Source: Thraustochytrium sp. TN22 (lineage: Eukaryota; Sar; Bigyra; Thraustochytrida; Thraustochytriidae). From it: 64,000 nt of DNA. Under the pieces are notes generated by a model. It was given only the letters and a program-made list of their open reading frames with translations, did not search any database and was not told the DNA's origin. A program made the position numbers and the translations under genes. The stretch spans positions 92,070-156,069 of the forward strand of contig JABLUY010000061.1 of assembly GCA_013306675.1 (NCBI GenBank). Direction: 5' to 3'. The first letter of the stretch is position 1, and the number at the start of each line of letters is the position of its first letter. Below, piece by piece: positions 19,598 through 31,532 of the stretch.

Positions 19598-21126
19598 ACG
19601 CGCTCTTCTCACCGAATCGCATCAAGTCTTCTTCGTCGCAAGTCGTCGCTGCTCTCTCGTCGCGCTAGCCTTCGACTAGCTAGTCTTCTCCCTCACCCTC
19701 TCACTCCTCTTCTCCACGCACGCGGGTTGCCCCGGCGATCCGGCGGCACGTCTCGGGCGCTGCCGCCGACCTCGCGTCGCAAGATGTTGAACATTCTCTG
19801 TCGCGCACGACTAGCCTAAGCTACATCCCATAACTTCGAGACTTTTTTAAGGAATGCCCCGCCCTTGTCCTTTTTCACCCTCCTCGTGACGGTGGCCGCT
19901 TGATGCCGCTCGCCCTCGCTCTGGCGGTCGCTAGCGAAGTCGCTCATGGTTGGGACGGTTTCAGCTCGCCTGATAGGTCTCTTCTACGAAGTATCTTCTT
20001 CGTCTCTCCCTTCCACAAGCAAGCCCTGCACCGGTTTCCCGCAGCTTAAAATTTTTGATCAGTGGGAAGAGGGGGGTTGCAGCCCCGCCTCCATCTCCAC
20101 GCGAGGGTCCCGCAGTCCGCCTCGGGGTCCCGCAGCCACCGCAGCCCGAAACCCGGCACCACTGCATCCAAAATCGTGTTCTTACCCACGTTGCCCCACT
20201 GCGCCATCCAGACGCAGAGGCGTCCCGTGCACTAGCGTATTGCCTAGCGAGGCCTAGCGCCCGCCGCGGCACGTCCGCTATTCTGAGGAGGCGTTTAGTA
20301 CGCTTGCCGTCCGCCACTGGTGCCTGCCTGCCTTGGCCGGTCCGAGCCCCCTGCCGGGCAGCCAGGCCGCCTGGCCGCGGCCATCGCTCGCTCGCAGCGA
20401 GCTCTCCGCCGACGCTGCGCAGTGCGCGCTCAGCACTTGCGCGCCGCGGGCGGCTCCAGGTCGGCAGGCAGGCAGGCAGGCAGGCGTGGCTTTTTCGCTA
20501 GGCTAGTAGGCTAGCAGCGCCTTGCTGCCAGCCACGGCACGCCGTAGCGCGCTCCGCTTTCCCTCCCTCCTTTCCTGCAGTCAGTCAGTCGGTGTGCTGT
20601 GGCTGTGGCTCCTGCGCTGCGATCTTTTGGCGCCGGGCGGCCGGGGCGGGCAGGCGGCACTGTGGCTGCGCCTCGCGGCCAGAGGAAAGGGCGCGAGAGG
20701 GCGCGAAAGGGCCGGCCGGCGCTTGCGCAGGCGAGGGCCGCCGCGGCGGCGCTGGGCTTGGCTGCCACTGGCCGCGGCAGGCTGCCCGCCCATGATGTGG
20801 AACATGTCACGGTGACGGCCCGGGTGTGCTGCGGCCTTGCGGCCCTTTTTCTCCCGCTATATCTCACTGTCAGGGTCAGTCAGGCTGGCTTGGCTCACTT
20901 GGCAAAGGCGCCTGGCCTGGCGTGGCTGCCTTGGCAGGCTCGCCTGCCTGCCTGTAAGGGCGCGCCGCGGCGGCAATCCAATCCGAGGCGCGCGCGGCAG
21001 AGAGCGGCGGCGCGGCGGCGGCGGCAGGGCGGCGGCGGCGGCAGCAGCGCGGCGGAAGGCGGCGTGCGGCTCGCGCCGCGGACCAGCGCGCTCGACCCCC
21101 GCGGGCTCCTGCGGAGCGGCAGCGCG

Positions 21127-21167
<41 letters not shown>

Positions 21168-21229
21168 AGAGGGAAAGTAAAGCGGCCGGCTGTATCTATT
21201 GCATCGCAGTGGAAAAGGAGGAGGAGAAG
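19598..21229. promoter_or_regulatory. Spacer between V-ATPase c and V-ATPase A
   Basis: 1.63 kb without a recognised gene. It begins with T/C-rich 3' UTR-like sequence containing CGACTAGCTAGTC (19671-19683). Further right are several CCTAGCG/GCTAGG copies (about 20240-20260 and 20498-20515), a GGCA repeat (about 20463-20484) and a GA tract just ahead of the V-ATPase A start. Open frames here have low-complexity Arg/Ala translations. Confidence 0.45.
21129..21178. repeat. GA microsatellite in the V-ATPase A leader
   Basis: (GA)16 grading into GGGA-rich purine sequence, about 50-100 bp upstream of the start codon. Confidence 0.85.
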
Positions 21230-23086
21230 ATGAGCGACCCGTACCAGGCCGGCGACTCCGAGTCGGACTATGGCTTCGTGCTGCGCGTGAGCGGTCCCCT
21301 GGTGGTGGGTGAGCGCATGGGCGGCGCGGCCATGTACGAGCTGGTCCGCGTGGGTAACGAGAAGCTGGTCGGTGAGATCATCAAGCTGGACGGCGACACC
21401 GCGAGTATCCAGGTGTACGAGGACACGAGCGGCCTGACCGTTGGCGACCCGATCCAGCGCACCAAGGCGCCGCTGTCGCTCGAGCTCGGCCCGGGCATCA
21501 TGAACCAGATCTTTGACGGTATCCAGCGGCCGCTGCAGACCATCTGCGAGATCTCGGAGGACAGTGTCTTCATCGACAAGGGCATCACGTGCAACGCCCT
21601 GGACCGCGAGAAGAAGTGGGTCTACAAGCCCAAGAACATCAGCAACGGCGATGTCATCACGGGTGGCGACATCTTCGCCGAGGTCTTCGAGAACGAGGTG
21701 CTCAACGCGCACTCCATCATGTGCCCGCCCAACATCCGCGGCACTGTCGTCGAGATGTACGGCGCCGGCACGGACAACAACGAGGAGGTCACCCTCAACG
21801 ACACCGTGCTCAAGGTCAAGGACGAGAAGGGCAAGGTGCACGAGATCAAGCCCTACCACCTGTGGCCCGTGCGTACGCCGCGCCCCATTACGGAGAAGCT
21901 CGCCGGCAACCAGGCGCTCGTCACGGGCCAGCGCGTCATCGATACGCTCTTTCCCTCGGTGCTCGGTGGTACCTGCGCCGTGCCGGGTGCCTTTGGCTGC
22001 GGCAAGACCGTCATTTCCCAGAGTCTCGCCAAGTTCTCCAACACGCAGGCCGTCGTCTACGTCGGCTGCGGCGAGCGCGGCAACGAGATGGCGGAGGTGC
22101 TCGCTGAGTTCCCGGAGCTCATGATGGAGAAGGAGGGCAAGGAGTACCCTGTCATGCTCCGGACCGTGCTGGTGGCCAACACCTCCAACATGCCCGTGGC
22201 CGCCCGCGAGGCCTCCATCTACACCGGCATCACGCTCGCCGAGTACTACCGCGACATGGGTCTCGACGTCGCCATGATGGCCGACTCCACCTCGCGCTGG
22301 GCCGAGGCTCTGCGCGAGATCTCCGGCCGCCTTGGTGAGATGCCCGCCGACTCGGGCTACCCGGCCTACCTCGGCGCTCGCCTCGCTGCCTTCTACGAGC
22401 GCGCGGGCCGCGTGCACTGCCTGGGCGGCCCCGAGCGCCAGGGCTCCATCACCGTCGTCGGCGCCGTCTCGCCGCCCGGTGGCGACTTCTCCGACCCGGT
22501 CACCTCGGCCACGCTTGGTATCGTCCAGGTCTTCTGGGGCCTCGACAAGAAGCTCGCCCAGCGCAAGCACTTCCCCTCGGTCAACTGGAACATCTCCTAC
22601 ACCAAGTACATGAACGTGCTCGGCCCCATGTTCGAGCGCATGGCGCCCGAGTACGGCGCGCTGCAGCAGGCCACCAAGCGCATCCTCTCCGACGAGGCCT
22701 CGCTCGCCGAGATTGTGCAGCTCGTCGGCAAGGACTCGCTCTCCGAGGACCAGAAGCTCACGCTCGAGGTCGCGCGCATCATCCGTGAGGACCACCTGCA
22801 GCAGAACGCCTTCTCCGACTACGACTTCACCTGCCCGCTCCACAAGTCCGTTGCCATCCTCAAGGCCATCGTCAAGTTCTACGAGATGGCCGTCAAGGCC
22901 ATCGAGGAGAGCCCGGCTGAGAAGCGCATCACCTGGGCCATCATCCGCAACACGCTCGACAAGGAGATTGTGCAGCTCACCGAGATGAAGTTCATCCACC
23001 CCAGCACCTCGCCCGCCGAGGTCAACGAGAAGACCGACGCCCTCCTCGCCAACATCGAGGCCCGCTTCGAGGCTCTTAAGAGCTAA
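21230..23086 (+). CDS. V-type proton ATPase catalytic subunit A
   Basis: 618 aa, the normal length of the nucleotide-hydrolysing V1 subunit. Key features are the Walker A GAFGCGKT at residues 253-260, the upstream non-homologous region characteristic of subunit A ([19 protein letters not shown]), [33 protein letters not shown] around the catalytic glutamate and arginine region, and a helical C-terminus. The start (ATGAGCGACCCG) follows a purine-rich leader; the frame is open upstream but repetitive. The gene is a single exon with very strong C/G-ending codon preference, consistent with high expression. Unlike yeast VMA1, no intein interrupts the P-loop region. Confidence 0.97.
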
Positions 23087-27571: not shown

Positions 27572-27875
27572 CTCGCGGTATTGGTCCTGCCTGACGCGGC
27601 GCGCAGCACGACTTGGAGTTGGCGAGGCGCAGCACAGTGCGACAACACCGCCACCACCCACACCACCTGCACTACCACGGTAGTAGTAGAAAGCGACTCG
27701 GATAACCCGGACTTGACTGCGAGGTTGAAGAAGACGAAGAAGACGAAGATGACGATGACGTGACTGACGTTTGTTGTTACCTCTTGACGTCACATCTTGG
27801 CAAAATGCAAAAAGGCAGAGATGGCAAAATCGGTTGGATCAGAGAGGACTTCAAAAACCTCGGCGCGGTCACAGC
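27572..27875. promoter_or_regulatory. Spacer between the LRR gene and the TYW1 3' end, with CRE-like palindrome
   Basis: 304 bp containing short GAAGAC/GACGAT repeats (about 27728-27762) and a perfect TGACGTCA at 27785-27792, 214 bp upstream of the LRR gene start. No gene was recognised. Confidence 0.35.
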
Positions 27876-30800
27876 TCACGCGGCGGCGCGGCGCTTGGCG
27901 CGCGCCTTGGAGGGCGGCAGGCCCACGGGCGGGCGCTCCGAGGCAGTGGTCGACATGGAGACGGCGTCCGCGTTGCTGCGCCGCTCCTTGCGGAAGCGAA
28001 CCTCGACCGGGTCGAAGCCCTCCTCGGGCGCGCCCCAGACGGCCCACTCGGGTGTATCAGCCAGGTAGTCGCGAGAGGTAAAGGTGGCGGTGCCGCCCGA
28101 GTCCTTGTAGGCTTGCGCCAGCTCGTGGAAGCGATCGTAATCGATCCAGGTGCGCCAGGTCTTGCCATCCTCCGCCAAATAGGTGTCGGTGCGTGCCAGC
28201 AGCGTGCAGCACGAATGCACGTGCTCCGAGGCGGTGCCGTAGGCGCCGTTGGTGCGCTCGCAAATGGCCTCGGCAAACTTGCGCACCTCGTGATGCCAAG
28301 GCACGTTCTCAATGGTCAGGTTGGAGGCGTCCGACTTGCCGCAGTACGTGACGGACTTGATCTCGATCAGGTCCGGCTGGCCGAGCTCGATAAGGCGAGC
28401 GTAGCCCTCGAGCTCCTCCTCCATCATGTTCCACTGCTTGACCAGCGTCAGACGGTACGTGGTGCGTTGGCCCTTGTCGCGCAGCGCCTCAAGGCTGCCC
28501 ACGAAGCGCTCCCAGAAGTCCTTGAAGAGCGGGCGATCCACCTCGCGCAGCGCGTCCTTGCTTGCCGCGTCCACGCTCACGTAGAGCTGGGTCACGGGCT
28601 GCAGGTCGCGGATCGCATCCGGGAACTGTGCATTCGTCACCAAAAACGTCGAGATGCGCCGCGCGTGCAGCTCGTCCACAAGCTCGTTGATGCGCGGGTA
28701 CATGATGGGCTCGCCCACCAGCGAGAGAGCGCAGTGACGCACGTTGAAGGCCTCCTCAAGGCGCTCCGGCTTGACGCCCGGCACGCCCTTCATCTGCTTG
28801 ATCATGCCGCGGTGCAGATCCACGGCCTGCTCCACAATTGCGCCCGGCTCATCCTCCTTCCACCGCCACTCGCGGCCCACCGGGTTCTTGTGATGCCGCC
28901 AGCAGTTGTGCACCACTACACCGTTCGCCACGAAGCTGCCCTCGCGGCTCTCAGGGAGCGGCACCGTCAGGTCGAAGACGCGCCGCGGCCCCGCCGGCCG
29001 CACCGCGAGCACCTCCAGCGCAAGCGTTGGCCACCCGGCCGCCTCGTCGCGCTCCGCCTCCTCGAGAAACGCGTCAAGGCCCAGGAGGTCGCGCACGAGG
29101 CGCGCTGTGGCGCTCGCGTCCGTGCGGGGCGTCCACGCCGCGAGCGCCGGATGCAGGTGGCCATCGCGCGCCGCGAGAGCCTCCTTGGCCTGCGCCAGTG
29201 CCGCGTCGGCATCCGCAGCGACATCCAACTCGGCCTCGGCCTCGGCCTCGGCCTTGGCGGCGGCGAGGCACGCCCGCAGCGCCGCCTCCTGGGCCCGCAC
29301 GAGCGAGAGCGCCCGCTCCAGCGTCGCGCCAGCTGCCAGCCGCAGCTGGGCCGCGCGACGGTGGCGCAGGCCGACGGACTCCGCCAGAGCGCGCGGCGCC
29401 GGCCGAGCCGGCCGCTGCACGCCGAGACGCTCCATCAGCGCCTGGACTTCCGGCAGGCACGCGGAGCTCAGGTCAATGATGCCGCCGAGCTCGGCGTCGA
29501 CGTGGGCGCGCTGGCCGAGGTAGGCGCCAACAAATTCGCGGAGCACGGGCGCCGGCGCACCTTCGACGAAGCCGGGCACCTGGGAGGCCCCGGCGCCGCA
29601 CGCGGACAGGGCCGCGGCAACGGGCGCTGGCATGCGCAGGCACCAGCGGCCGTCACGCGTGCGCCGGGCGACGCAGCGGGCTTCGGCAAAAGGCGCGGTC
29701 GCGGCCAGTAGCGCCTCCACGTCGCCGCGCAGCGTGGCCACGTCGGCGGCGGCGTCCAGGACCAGGTCCGCGTCGCGGACCTCGGCCTGCTGCGCGCAGA
29801 GCACACCTGCGACGCGCGCAAAGGCCAGCGCGAAGGCCGACGCTGCGCCGCCGTCCAGGCGCAGAGCGGGCTCGCCTAGGCCGTCTGCGCGCGGCAGCGC
29901 GAAGGTCCAGGTCAAAGAGGCCGCGTCCGGAGCGTTCAAGGTGCTGCCGCAGAAGTCGACCGTAGCCTCAACCTGTGCGCCAGGCGCGAGCTTGCCGGCC
30001 GGGACCCATGCAGCCGCCTCCGTGGGCGAGGCGGACACGCGGATGCGGTGGTCTGGCGTGCAGACGAGCGTGCGGCCGTCTACGAGGACAAGCTCCACGC
30101 AGTCCTTCGTACCGCTGTCCGTGAAGGCGGTGAGCTGCTGCGCACTGAGGCGCTCCACGTCGCCGGCGTCGAGCGCCAGCACGGAGCCGGCCGACACGCC
30201 GGCGAGCGGAGCGAGCTGCTCAATGGGCAGGGCAACGCCGGAGGCGAGGGCAACGAGCGTGCCCTCGGCAATGCAGAAGACGCACTTGTTCGCACACGCC
30301 AGGCTCGGCGTGGCCTCCATGCACTGGTACGAGGTGATGCCGTAGAAGGTGTGCTTGTAGCAGCCGCCGCGGCCTCGCAGCTGGTGCTTGGTCCAGCGGC
30401 ACAGCTTGACGGCCGAGTGCGTGCCAATGATCTTGTACCCCTCCTTGGTGAGCGCCGCACGCTGCGAGGTGGTCACCATCTCGGGCCGCTCGGCGCCGGG
30501 CTCCGTCGGGCCGCTGCTCGTGCCCACCACGATCATGTCTTCCATGTCGTCCAGCATCATCTCGTTCATGCGGTCCTCCTGCTCTTCCAGGGCCGAAATG
30601 GCGGGTGCCAGTTCGGAAGGTGCCTCGTTGGCCTGCTGCTTCGCCGTTGCCCCGCTGAGCTGTTGCTGCTGCTGCTGCTGCTGCTTCTGCTGCGGGGCGC
30701 CGCGGCCGGCAACAGCCTGCCGCGCCGGCAGCGGCACGACCTCGTCGCGCTCGATGGCCGCGCGCACTCGGCCGCCCAAGTTCTCAATCTTGGCGCTCGC

Positions 30801-31209
30801 GTCCGCATCGTCCACCAGGATGGGCAAGCACAGGCGTCGTGCGCCCAGCTTGCCCACCGTCTCGTCCAGCCGCCAGCCGGTACGGCAGAAGAGACCCTTG
30901 CCGTACGCGCGGCTGCCTAGCGCCACCACCGCAAAGCGAAGGTTGGCCAGAAAGCGCGACTTGTCCACACGAAAGTCCAGCACCATGTCCTCCAGCCAGG
31001 CCACGAGCGCCTCGCCGCTGCTGGGAGGCGCGCCATCCGTCCAGGTCGGCATCACGAAGATCACCACGCGTTCGTCCTCCAGCTCGTCCGCAAAGCTGTA
31101 GTCCGCGGCGTCCACCACGCGCGCACCCTCCACGCCGCCCGCCACGATGTCCGCAATTTTACTCGCGGTCCCGGTCGTCGTTGCGTACACGACCGTCACC
31201 GGAGTCGGG

Positions 31210-31254
<45 letters not shown>

Positions 31255-31532
31255 AGCTGCAGGCTGAGCTGCTCGGCGTCCACCGCGAGGTCCTCCTCCA
31301 GGGCGCCATCCTCGTCAGCGCCGGCCTTGCTCCTCGCGTTGGCCAGCGCCGCGCGCAGCCCGCCGCGAAAGGGCCAGGTGCTGCGCACCACCTGCTTGGC
31401 GCGCTTGGCGAGCGCGCTCGCCGTGCCGGGCTCCACCAGGGTGCCCCAGGCCGCCGCCACCACGGCCAGCGTCGCCGCCGCCGCCAGCGACGCGATGGCC
31501 GCCTCGCGCCATCCCGCCGCCGCCGCCGCCAT
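27876..31532 (-). CDS. TYW1: tRNA wybutosine synthase TYW1 (4-demethylwyosine synthase) precursor with intein
   Basis: 1218 aa in a single exon; removing the intein leaves 761 aa, close to the 732 aa I recall for the human enzyme. It makes 4-demethylwyosine from N1-methylguanosine-37 of tRNA-Phe using SAM and pyruvate. The order is: a hydrophobic N-terminal anchor (about 8-33), a Gln run (about 94-109), a flavodoxin domain (about 112-265, TVVYATTTGTASKIADIV), a second Gln run and acidic linker, then the radical-SAM domain. The iron-sulphur motif CANKCVF-C begins at Cys413 and Cys417. Its third Cys is residue 877, after a 457-residue intein (420-876). The C-extein continues CWRHHKNPVG, ending in the TYW1 C-terminal domain and a basic tail. 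It is divergent from uL2. Confidence 0.95.
28905..30275 (-). mobile_element. Intein inside TYW1, 457 residues, with degenerate endonuclease region
   Basis: The insert begins with Cys (block A: CIAEGTLVALASG) and ends VHN directly before extein Cys (block G: ANGVVVHN|C). Block B is VCTPDHRIRV (intein residues 71-80, Thr73/His76). Block F is RRVFDLTVPLPESREGSFVA (431-450). The flanking extein joins to CANKCVFCWRHH, the intact TYW1 motif. The borders are not GT-AG and the frame is open throughout, which excludes an ordinary intron. The 300-residue middle is long enough for a LAGLIDADG endonuclease. Candidate motifs at intein residues about 151-162 (AFARVAGVLCAQ) and 246-256 (REFVGAYLGQR) lack the catalytic acidic residue. 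GC content and codon use match the host, so the element is old or well adapted. Confidence 0.93.

Follow-up and report, generated by a model that had tools for sequence, protein, structure and literature searches.

How could TYW1 assemble its [4Fe-4S] cluster when the cysteines of its cluster motif are separated by 457 codons of other sequence? The question is raised by a locus of Thraustochytrium sp. TN22 (NCBI GenBank assembly GCA_013306675.1) that lies in the 64,000-nucleotide stretch analyzed here (contig JABLUY010000061.1, positions 92,070 to 156,069 of the forward strand), which we call the window. The only TYW1 gene found in the genome carries an in-frame insert immediately before the third cysteine of the radical-SAM CxxxCxxC motif. 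The insert is very probably a class-1 cis-splicing intein whose endonuclease has decayed and whose excision would leave a TYW1 of 761 residues. An initial annotation of the locus had proposed that this nuclear TYW1 gene contains an intein, and profile searches, splicing residues, the precision of the site, and the lack of intron borders all support that proposal.

The insert and its site in TYW1

How the insert sits in its host is seen directly in the reading frame. The open reading frame (ORF) from 31532 down to 27876 is a eukaryotic-type TYW1, in which flavodoxin, radical-SAM, and Wyosine_form domains and the CxxxCxxC motif are all present. The insert begins CIAEGT and ends VVVHN, and the residue that follows is the third cysteine of the motif. 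When the exteins are joined without it, the junction becomes CANKCVF/CWRHH in a protein of 761 amino acids, and the restored motif reads CANKCVFCWRHH. The 457-codon in-frame insert with its Cys start and its VHN end followed by Cys is thus as first described, and so is the return of the TYW1 radical-SAM motif upon removal. Moreover, the solved archaeal TYW1 structure 2yx0 can be aligned with both exteins, and its residues 87 and 88, which flank the insertion point, are adjacent with nothing between them. The Cx3Cx2CWR motif is uninterrupted in all 80 archaeal TYW1 loci that were kept from 579, a sample in which the keep-best rule favors uninterrupted genes. The locus therefore has what a class-1 intein should have, an in-frame insert at a conserved host site whose exact removal restores the host. 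The host gene is organized as follows.

27876..31532, minus strand: TYW1 precursor ORF, 1,218 amino acids plus stop, 131 kDa (sequence and domain profiles)
30276..31532, minus strand: N-extein, amino acids 1-419, with polyglutamine runs, the flavodoxin domain, the start of the radical-SAM domain, and, by eye, a hydrophobic N-terminus
30789..31193, minus strand: Flavodoxin_1 domain, amino acids 114-248 (PF00258, E 1.4e-24)
30276..30296, minus strand: CANKCVF, with the first two cysteines of the radical-SAM CxxxCxxC, directly N-terminal to the intein
30282..30284, minus strand: Cys at extein position -3, the second cluster cysteine and a possible redox partner of Cys1 (sequence; MoaA precedent in a part of PMC3922620)
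27876..28904, minus strand: C-extein, 342 amino acids plus stop, first residue Cys+1, the third cluster cysteine (28902-28904)
28413..28754, minus strand: Radical_SAM domain, C-extein part, amino acids 927-1040 (PF04055, E 8.2e-12)
28191..28382, minus strand: Wyosine_form domain, amino acids 1051-1114 (PF08608, E 3.2e-21)

The model TIGR03972 matches the precursor ORF in two stretches (E 5e-85, 285 bits); split by the insert, this match does not reach the model's cut-off of 317.95. One TYW1 was found in the genome, six other matches (E 0.013 to 0.19) being restricted to the low-complexity N-terminal part, and TYW3 is also present (E 3.3e-48). Two polyglutamine-coding runs of the CAG type lie in the N-extein, at 31212-31253 and 30660-30683. 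On the opposite strand, a 646-amino-acid open frame (27771-29711, plus strand) runs across the C-extein and part of the intein and probably results from the GC-rich codon pattern. Because this part of the window is 70% GC and such an antisense frame overlaps the gene, an open frame alone is weak evidence here, but codon use in the insert is close to that of the exteins and far from that of random codings of the same protein.

Intein homology and splicing residues

Whether the insert is an intein was staked beforehand on similarity to known inteins over the splicing domain, and such similarity was found. A profile of 35 viral inteins aligned over its entire length (1-348 of 348) from Cys1 to Asn457 with an E of 8.5e-26, and the insert was the sole match among 619 window ORFs of at least 60 amino acids. 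When four rows with a block B like that of the window were left out, the E remained 2e-25 (best single domain, 4.3e-14), and none of 500 shuffles of the insert reached its profile score. The signal is carried by the two splicing parts (57.6 and 36.1 bits, 0/500 shuffles each), and the middle gave 1.8 bits, the best of 500 shuffles giving 0.3. Moreover, shuffling only the middle barely lowered the score (mean of 85.9 versus 90.2, with 4/500 reaching the original); thus, the middle adds little. Finally, the NCBIfam intein C-terminus model TIGR01443 found the insert as its sole match in the 37.9-Mb genome (E 2.3e-4; 27.5 bits, cut-off 15.6).

Several results weigh against this identification. PF14890 (E 6.5e-4, spanning 40-457) and TIGR01445 (E 4.5e-4) both score below their cut-offs, at 20 bits versus 35.8 and 21.2 bits versus 24.5, respectively, and a PF14890 scan of the organism's own genome gave no match at E 10 and missed the locus. 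A narrow profile of ten archaeal inteins did not match, and a structure model of the insert as a single sequence had a predicted local distance difference test (pLDDT) score of 42 and was unusable. In addition, the insert was itself part of the alignment behind the patterns that fetched the viral inteins. Candidates were extracted only with a Cys/Ser/Ala start, T/GxxH, and a terminal HN, and of these only Cys starts were kept, so that conservation of the Cys start, T/GxxH, and HN columns is built in. Neither Asp435 nor the overall score was selected for in this way. From 48 candidate ends in viral contigs, the 35 viral inteins were chosen manually, and with the insert they form 36 rows, 36/36 of which match PF14890 at an E of ≤0.001.

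Searches with single sequences reached less far. With the insert as query, phmmer against the PDB found the Mtu RecA intein (E 0.0011), mostly by its N-terminal part, with the C-end in place at only 1.1 bits, and it did not reach the VMA1 intein. Searched directly, the insert had no relative in 600 stretches of viral contigs, hit three plasmid records at E 7-9 only, and matched no PHROGs family. The whole precursor matched 46 phage records at E up to 10, and the best intein-like one among the 10 matches listed was from Vibrio phage EniLVp02 (E 8e-3). In that phage, a recombinase-like gene (DNA repair protein, recombinase) is apparently in two pieces around a homing endonuclease (L160, 1811-4244), an arrangement like that of fractured genes with split inteins.

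How the insert would splice follows from its residues. Cys1 is the N-terminal nucleophile, TPDH at 73-76 supplies the block B TxxH, Asp435 is the block F Asp (Asp in 34 of 36 alignment rows, insert included), and the intein ends in a penultimate His and terminal Asn that are followed by Cys. Blocks A, B, F, and G are therefore recognizable, as had been claimed. Standard class-1 splicing chemistry would apply to Cys1, Thr73/His76, Asp435, His456, Asn457, and Cys+1. The precursor would be translated whole, insert included, and at Cys1 the Phe-Cys bond would become a thioester. The N-extein would then pass to Cys+1, which in TYW1 is the third cysteine of the cluster, and cyclization of Asn457 would leave the exteins joined as a 761-amino-acid TYW1 with a contiguous CxxxCxxC. 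The joined protein is predicted to bind its [4Fe-4S] cluster and to make 4-demethylwyosine on tRNA-Phe. As Cys+1 and Cys-3 are the third and second cluster cysteines, the precursor motif is split by 457 residues and no normal cluster binding is expected; therefore, the unspliced precursor should be inactive. The TxxH and the block F Asp are described as part of class-1 splicing chemistry in a section of PMC10663303. The parts of the intein are as follows.

28905..30275, minus strand: intein, 457 amino acids, precursor amino acids 420-876, 1,371 nucleotides, 46.9 kDa (profiles and sequence)
30237..30275, minus strand: splicing block A, CIAEGTLVALASG, with the nucleophile Cys1 at 30273-30275
30048..30059, minus strand: block B, TPDH, with intein Thr73 and His76
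29388..29579, minus strand: probable vestige of the second LAGLIDADG motif region (intein 233-296), CDGYV of relatives being QRAHV here with the catalytic acid replaced (weak signal)
28905..28982, minus strand: blocks F and G, RVFDLTVPLPESREGSFVANGVVVHN, with Asp435, His456, and Asn457 (TIGR01443 above cut-off)

Other inteins, other TYW1 genes, and possible redox control

Whether both the host and the insertion site are new, as the initial annotation suggested, has a divided answer. The position was not seen interrupted in any other TYW1 searched, but the same radical-SAM cysteine breaks the model of another family, Rv2578c. Among the archaeal genomes scanned, in phyla of 392 and 115 genomes, none showed a TYW1 with an interruption at this position. 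In the phylum centered on Methanosarcinaceae, TYW1 matched in 346 of 392 genomes, 338 of these matches (best E 3.3e-108 or better) being counted as uninterrupted on E-value alone. Six of the remaining eight cross model position 65, the cluster Cys, in one piece, and two (G178 and G435) are without the N-terminal part. In the Thermococcus-centered phylum, 112 of 115 genomes matched, and the cluster-Cys position is crossed by a single match in 110 and not covered in two (G013 and G116). Neither the TYW1 C-extein nor the TYW1 alignment found a TYW1 in the viral contigs.

The literature gave a similar picture. Nuclear inteins of fungi and protists (PRP8, VMA1, RNA polymerase, ThrRS, GLT, CHS, and eIF5B) likewise occupy conserved sites in nuclear genes, and the hosts in Table 1 of PMC5784728 are other than TYW1. 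TYW1 is not among the hosts named in the pertinent parts of that 2018 survey of eukaryotic inteins, the table of which gives the most common hosts only. In the open-licence literature searched, no link between TYW1 and inteins was found, and among the matches listed none paired inteins with wyosine terms or thraustochytrid genera; for inteins together with thraustochytrids, the one match was a paper on marine drugs. Nothing bearing on the question stood in the relevant portions of PMC3087415, PMC3655853, PMC3322345, PMC4031507, PMC7765530, PMC8779196, and PMC11951076. We conclude that, as far as these searches show, TYW1 is a new host protein for a known kind of element, not a proven first, and that labyrinthulomycete stramenopiles are probably a new lineage for nuclear inteins. 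The initial annotation's further suggestion, that TYW1 is the first tRNA-modification enzyme to host an intein, is likewise unproven. The short list of nuclear inteins is nonetheless extended, and a eukaryotic intein is linked to the cluster motif of a radical-SAM enzyme.

Which inteins are closest depends on whether sequence or site is compared. By sequence, the nearest of 45 compared is a viral intein (L199, E 5.3e-12 in that small set) whose C-extein is DnaB_C, and when the insert is scanned by itself with NCBIfam models, PRK07773 (replicative DNA helicase) scores best (E 1.3e-5). These DnaB-type helicase inteins of phages and mycobacteria differ from that of TYW1 in host protein and in site, which is after GK and before T, and the nearest ones retain the Asp in the second endonuclease motif. 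By site, the closest is the Rv2578c-family radical-SAM intein model NF038136, which is broken at the same Cys, directly before the third Cys of CxxxCxxC. In 9 of the 10 best rows from intein-less archaeal relatives, the match to NF038136 starts at model position 335, and each of these loci has the third Cys as its first matched residue, with CxxxCxx before it (9/9). Moreover, model positions 68-148 align to precursor amino acids 412-497 across the junction, and an ungapped reading puts position 76 on Cys420. Rv2578c proteins are, however, a different radical-SAM enzyme from TYW1, and the insert alone has no match to NF038136, so that the evidence shows a shared site but not a common origin of the two inteins. 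An Rv2578c-like protein matched 77 plasmid records, and each of the 40 matches listed spans the motif in one piece and thus has no intein there.

The MoaA intein of Pyrococcus abyssi also has a host that is of the radical-SAM type by name, and its Cys-3/Cys1 spacing is identical to that of the TYW1 intein. It is archaeal, however, and belongs to a different enzyme, and the comparison was made from reviews. An archaeal MoaA model matched 103 of 115 genomes of the Thermococcus-centered phylum, and none of the matches listed has space for an intein, so that with this model the MoaA intein host did not turn up in that phylum. Together with the MoaA case from the reviews and the break in the Rv2578c-family model, TYW1 suggests that the radical-SAM cluster motif is a repeated landing site for inteins.

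How splicing might be controlled in TYW1 is suggested by analogy. In P. abyssi MoaA, a native disulfide between Cys-3 and Cys1 blocks splicing under oxidation, as reported in parts of PMC3922620 and PMC10663303. The TYW1 intein has the same two cysteines at the same spacing, and its splicing residues remain despite a decayed-looking endonuclease. As an addition to splicing, oxidation might form the Cys-3/Cys1 disulfide, and TYW1, with its oxygen-sensitive cluster, might be released only when conditions are reducing. We regard such a switch as rather unlikely. The Cys at -3 is dictated by the radical-SAM motif and is present in 80/80 archaeal TYW1 loci, and its presence is thus no sign of adaptation. 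Moreover, the cytosol is normally reducing. Somewhat less likely again is a broader proposal, in which a domesticated intein gates wyosine formation on tRNA-Phe by sensing either redox state, through the disulfide, or cluster supply. TYW1 would then be active only when [4Fe-4S] can be loaded, and the same cysteine would have been colonized independently in several radical-SAM families. The modified base of tRNA-Phe would offer an easy read-out for testing redox-gated splicing.

The probable endonuclease remnant, alternatives, and genome context

What the middle of the insert once was can be suggested from weak evidence: it looks like a decayed LAGLIDADG endonuclease. By hhalign, the score of the middle against our entry L114 was reached by 0/150 shuffles. 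For the insert against seven related archaeal inteins (group L088), 9/150 shuffles reached the score, which is not significant, and three archaeal sets other than L088 gave 0/150. A profile on residues 230-296 gave 2.5 bits (0/500 shuffles). The first LAGLIDADG motif is not recognizable in the insert, the profile score being nil for that region, and hence the two motifs with catalytic acids that a mobile intein should have were not found. Naming these regions as LAGLIDADG motifs is a reading drawn from relatives, as PF14528 (LAGLIDADG_3) matches 19 of the 36 aligned inteins and not the insert. We infer that the endonuclease is dead. With the catalytic acids of its homing-endonuclease domain lost, the intein is probably no longer mobile, persisting by splicing as a probable splicing-only element.

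Decay could have gone further, such that splicing too is lost, leaving TYW1 dead or present only as precursor. The look of the middle and the PF14890 and TIGR01445 scores below cut-off would fit, but we consider this very improbable. The class-1 catalytic residues are intact where the endonuclease acid is lost, as expected if selection maintains splicing. In addition, each extein matches TYW1, and the genome has a TYW3. Decay could instead be overstated, the endonuclease being active and the intein still mobile, and 457 amino acids is indeed the length of a full intein, with a second motif region that is faintly recognizable. That reading is slightly more improbable still and was rejected on motif evidence, as the insert has QRA where relatives have the CDG of the second motif, no first motif can be recognized, and PF14528 does not match. 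Codon use also points to probable long residence: the insert scores 0.587 and the exteins 0.65-0.67, and 300 random codings of the insert protein had a mean of 0.096 and a maximum of 0.235. Such host-like codon use fits a long stay in the genome.

A cis-splicing intein thus remains the preferred reading, and an intron is hardly credible beside it. An insert removed from RNA would likewise restore the motif exactly, a eukaryotic nuclear gene could well hold an intron, and the likeness to an intein could come from intron-borne or dead intein sequence. Rejection rests on the borders, with GT-AG, GC-AG, or AT-AC ends in 0/5 equivalent placements of the insert, and 457 codons of open frame with host codon use and the retained splicing residues also speak against it. 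Least likely of all is contamination or misassembly, for the assembly is a draft of 453 contigs but the gene lies among eukaryotic genes at the end of a 156-kb contig and has host codon use, and we rejected it on that context.

The TYW1 locus is nuclear because its contig carries eukaryotic genes. By Pfam, its neighbors include a V-ATPase, a ribosomal L2-type protein, TTC21, and an SNF2 helicase, and a 5,271-amino-acid dynein heavy chain was recognized by eye on the same contig. The window has a GC content of 66% and long uninterrupted ORFs, features that, together with the tandem acyl-carrier array described below, suggest a thraustochytrid. VMA1 is a classic nuclear intein host, and its homologue here, a V-ATPase catalytic-type subunit with a barrel-sandwich extension, is an uninterrupted ORF (20837-23086, plus strand) ~5 kb from TYW1. 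Elsewhere in the genome (C124:29160-32300, minus strand), ten tandem acyl-carrier protein (ACP) domains at an exact spacing of 327 bases, nine of them with equal score, lie in one 3,044-amino-acid frame. The layout is that of a polyunsaturated fatty acid (PUFA) synthase subunit, and the frame appears to hold a PUFA synthase array; eukaryotic PUFA synthases with 6-13 tandem ACPs are described in a part of PMC9702510.

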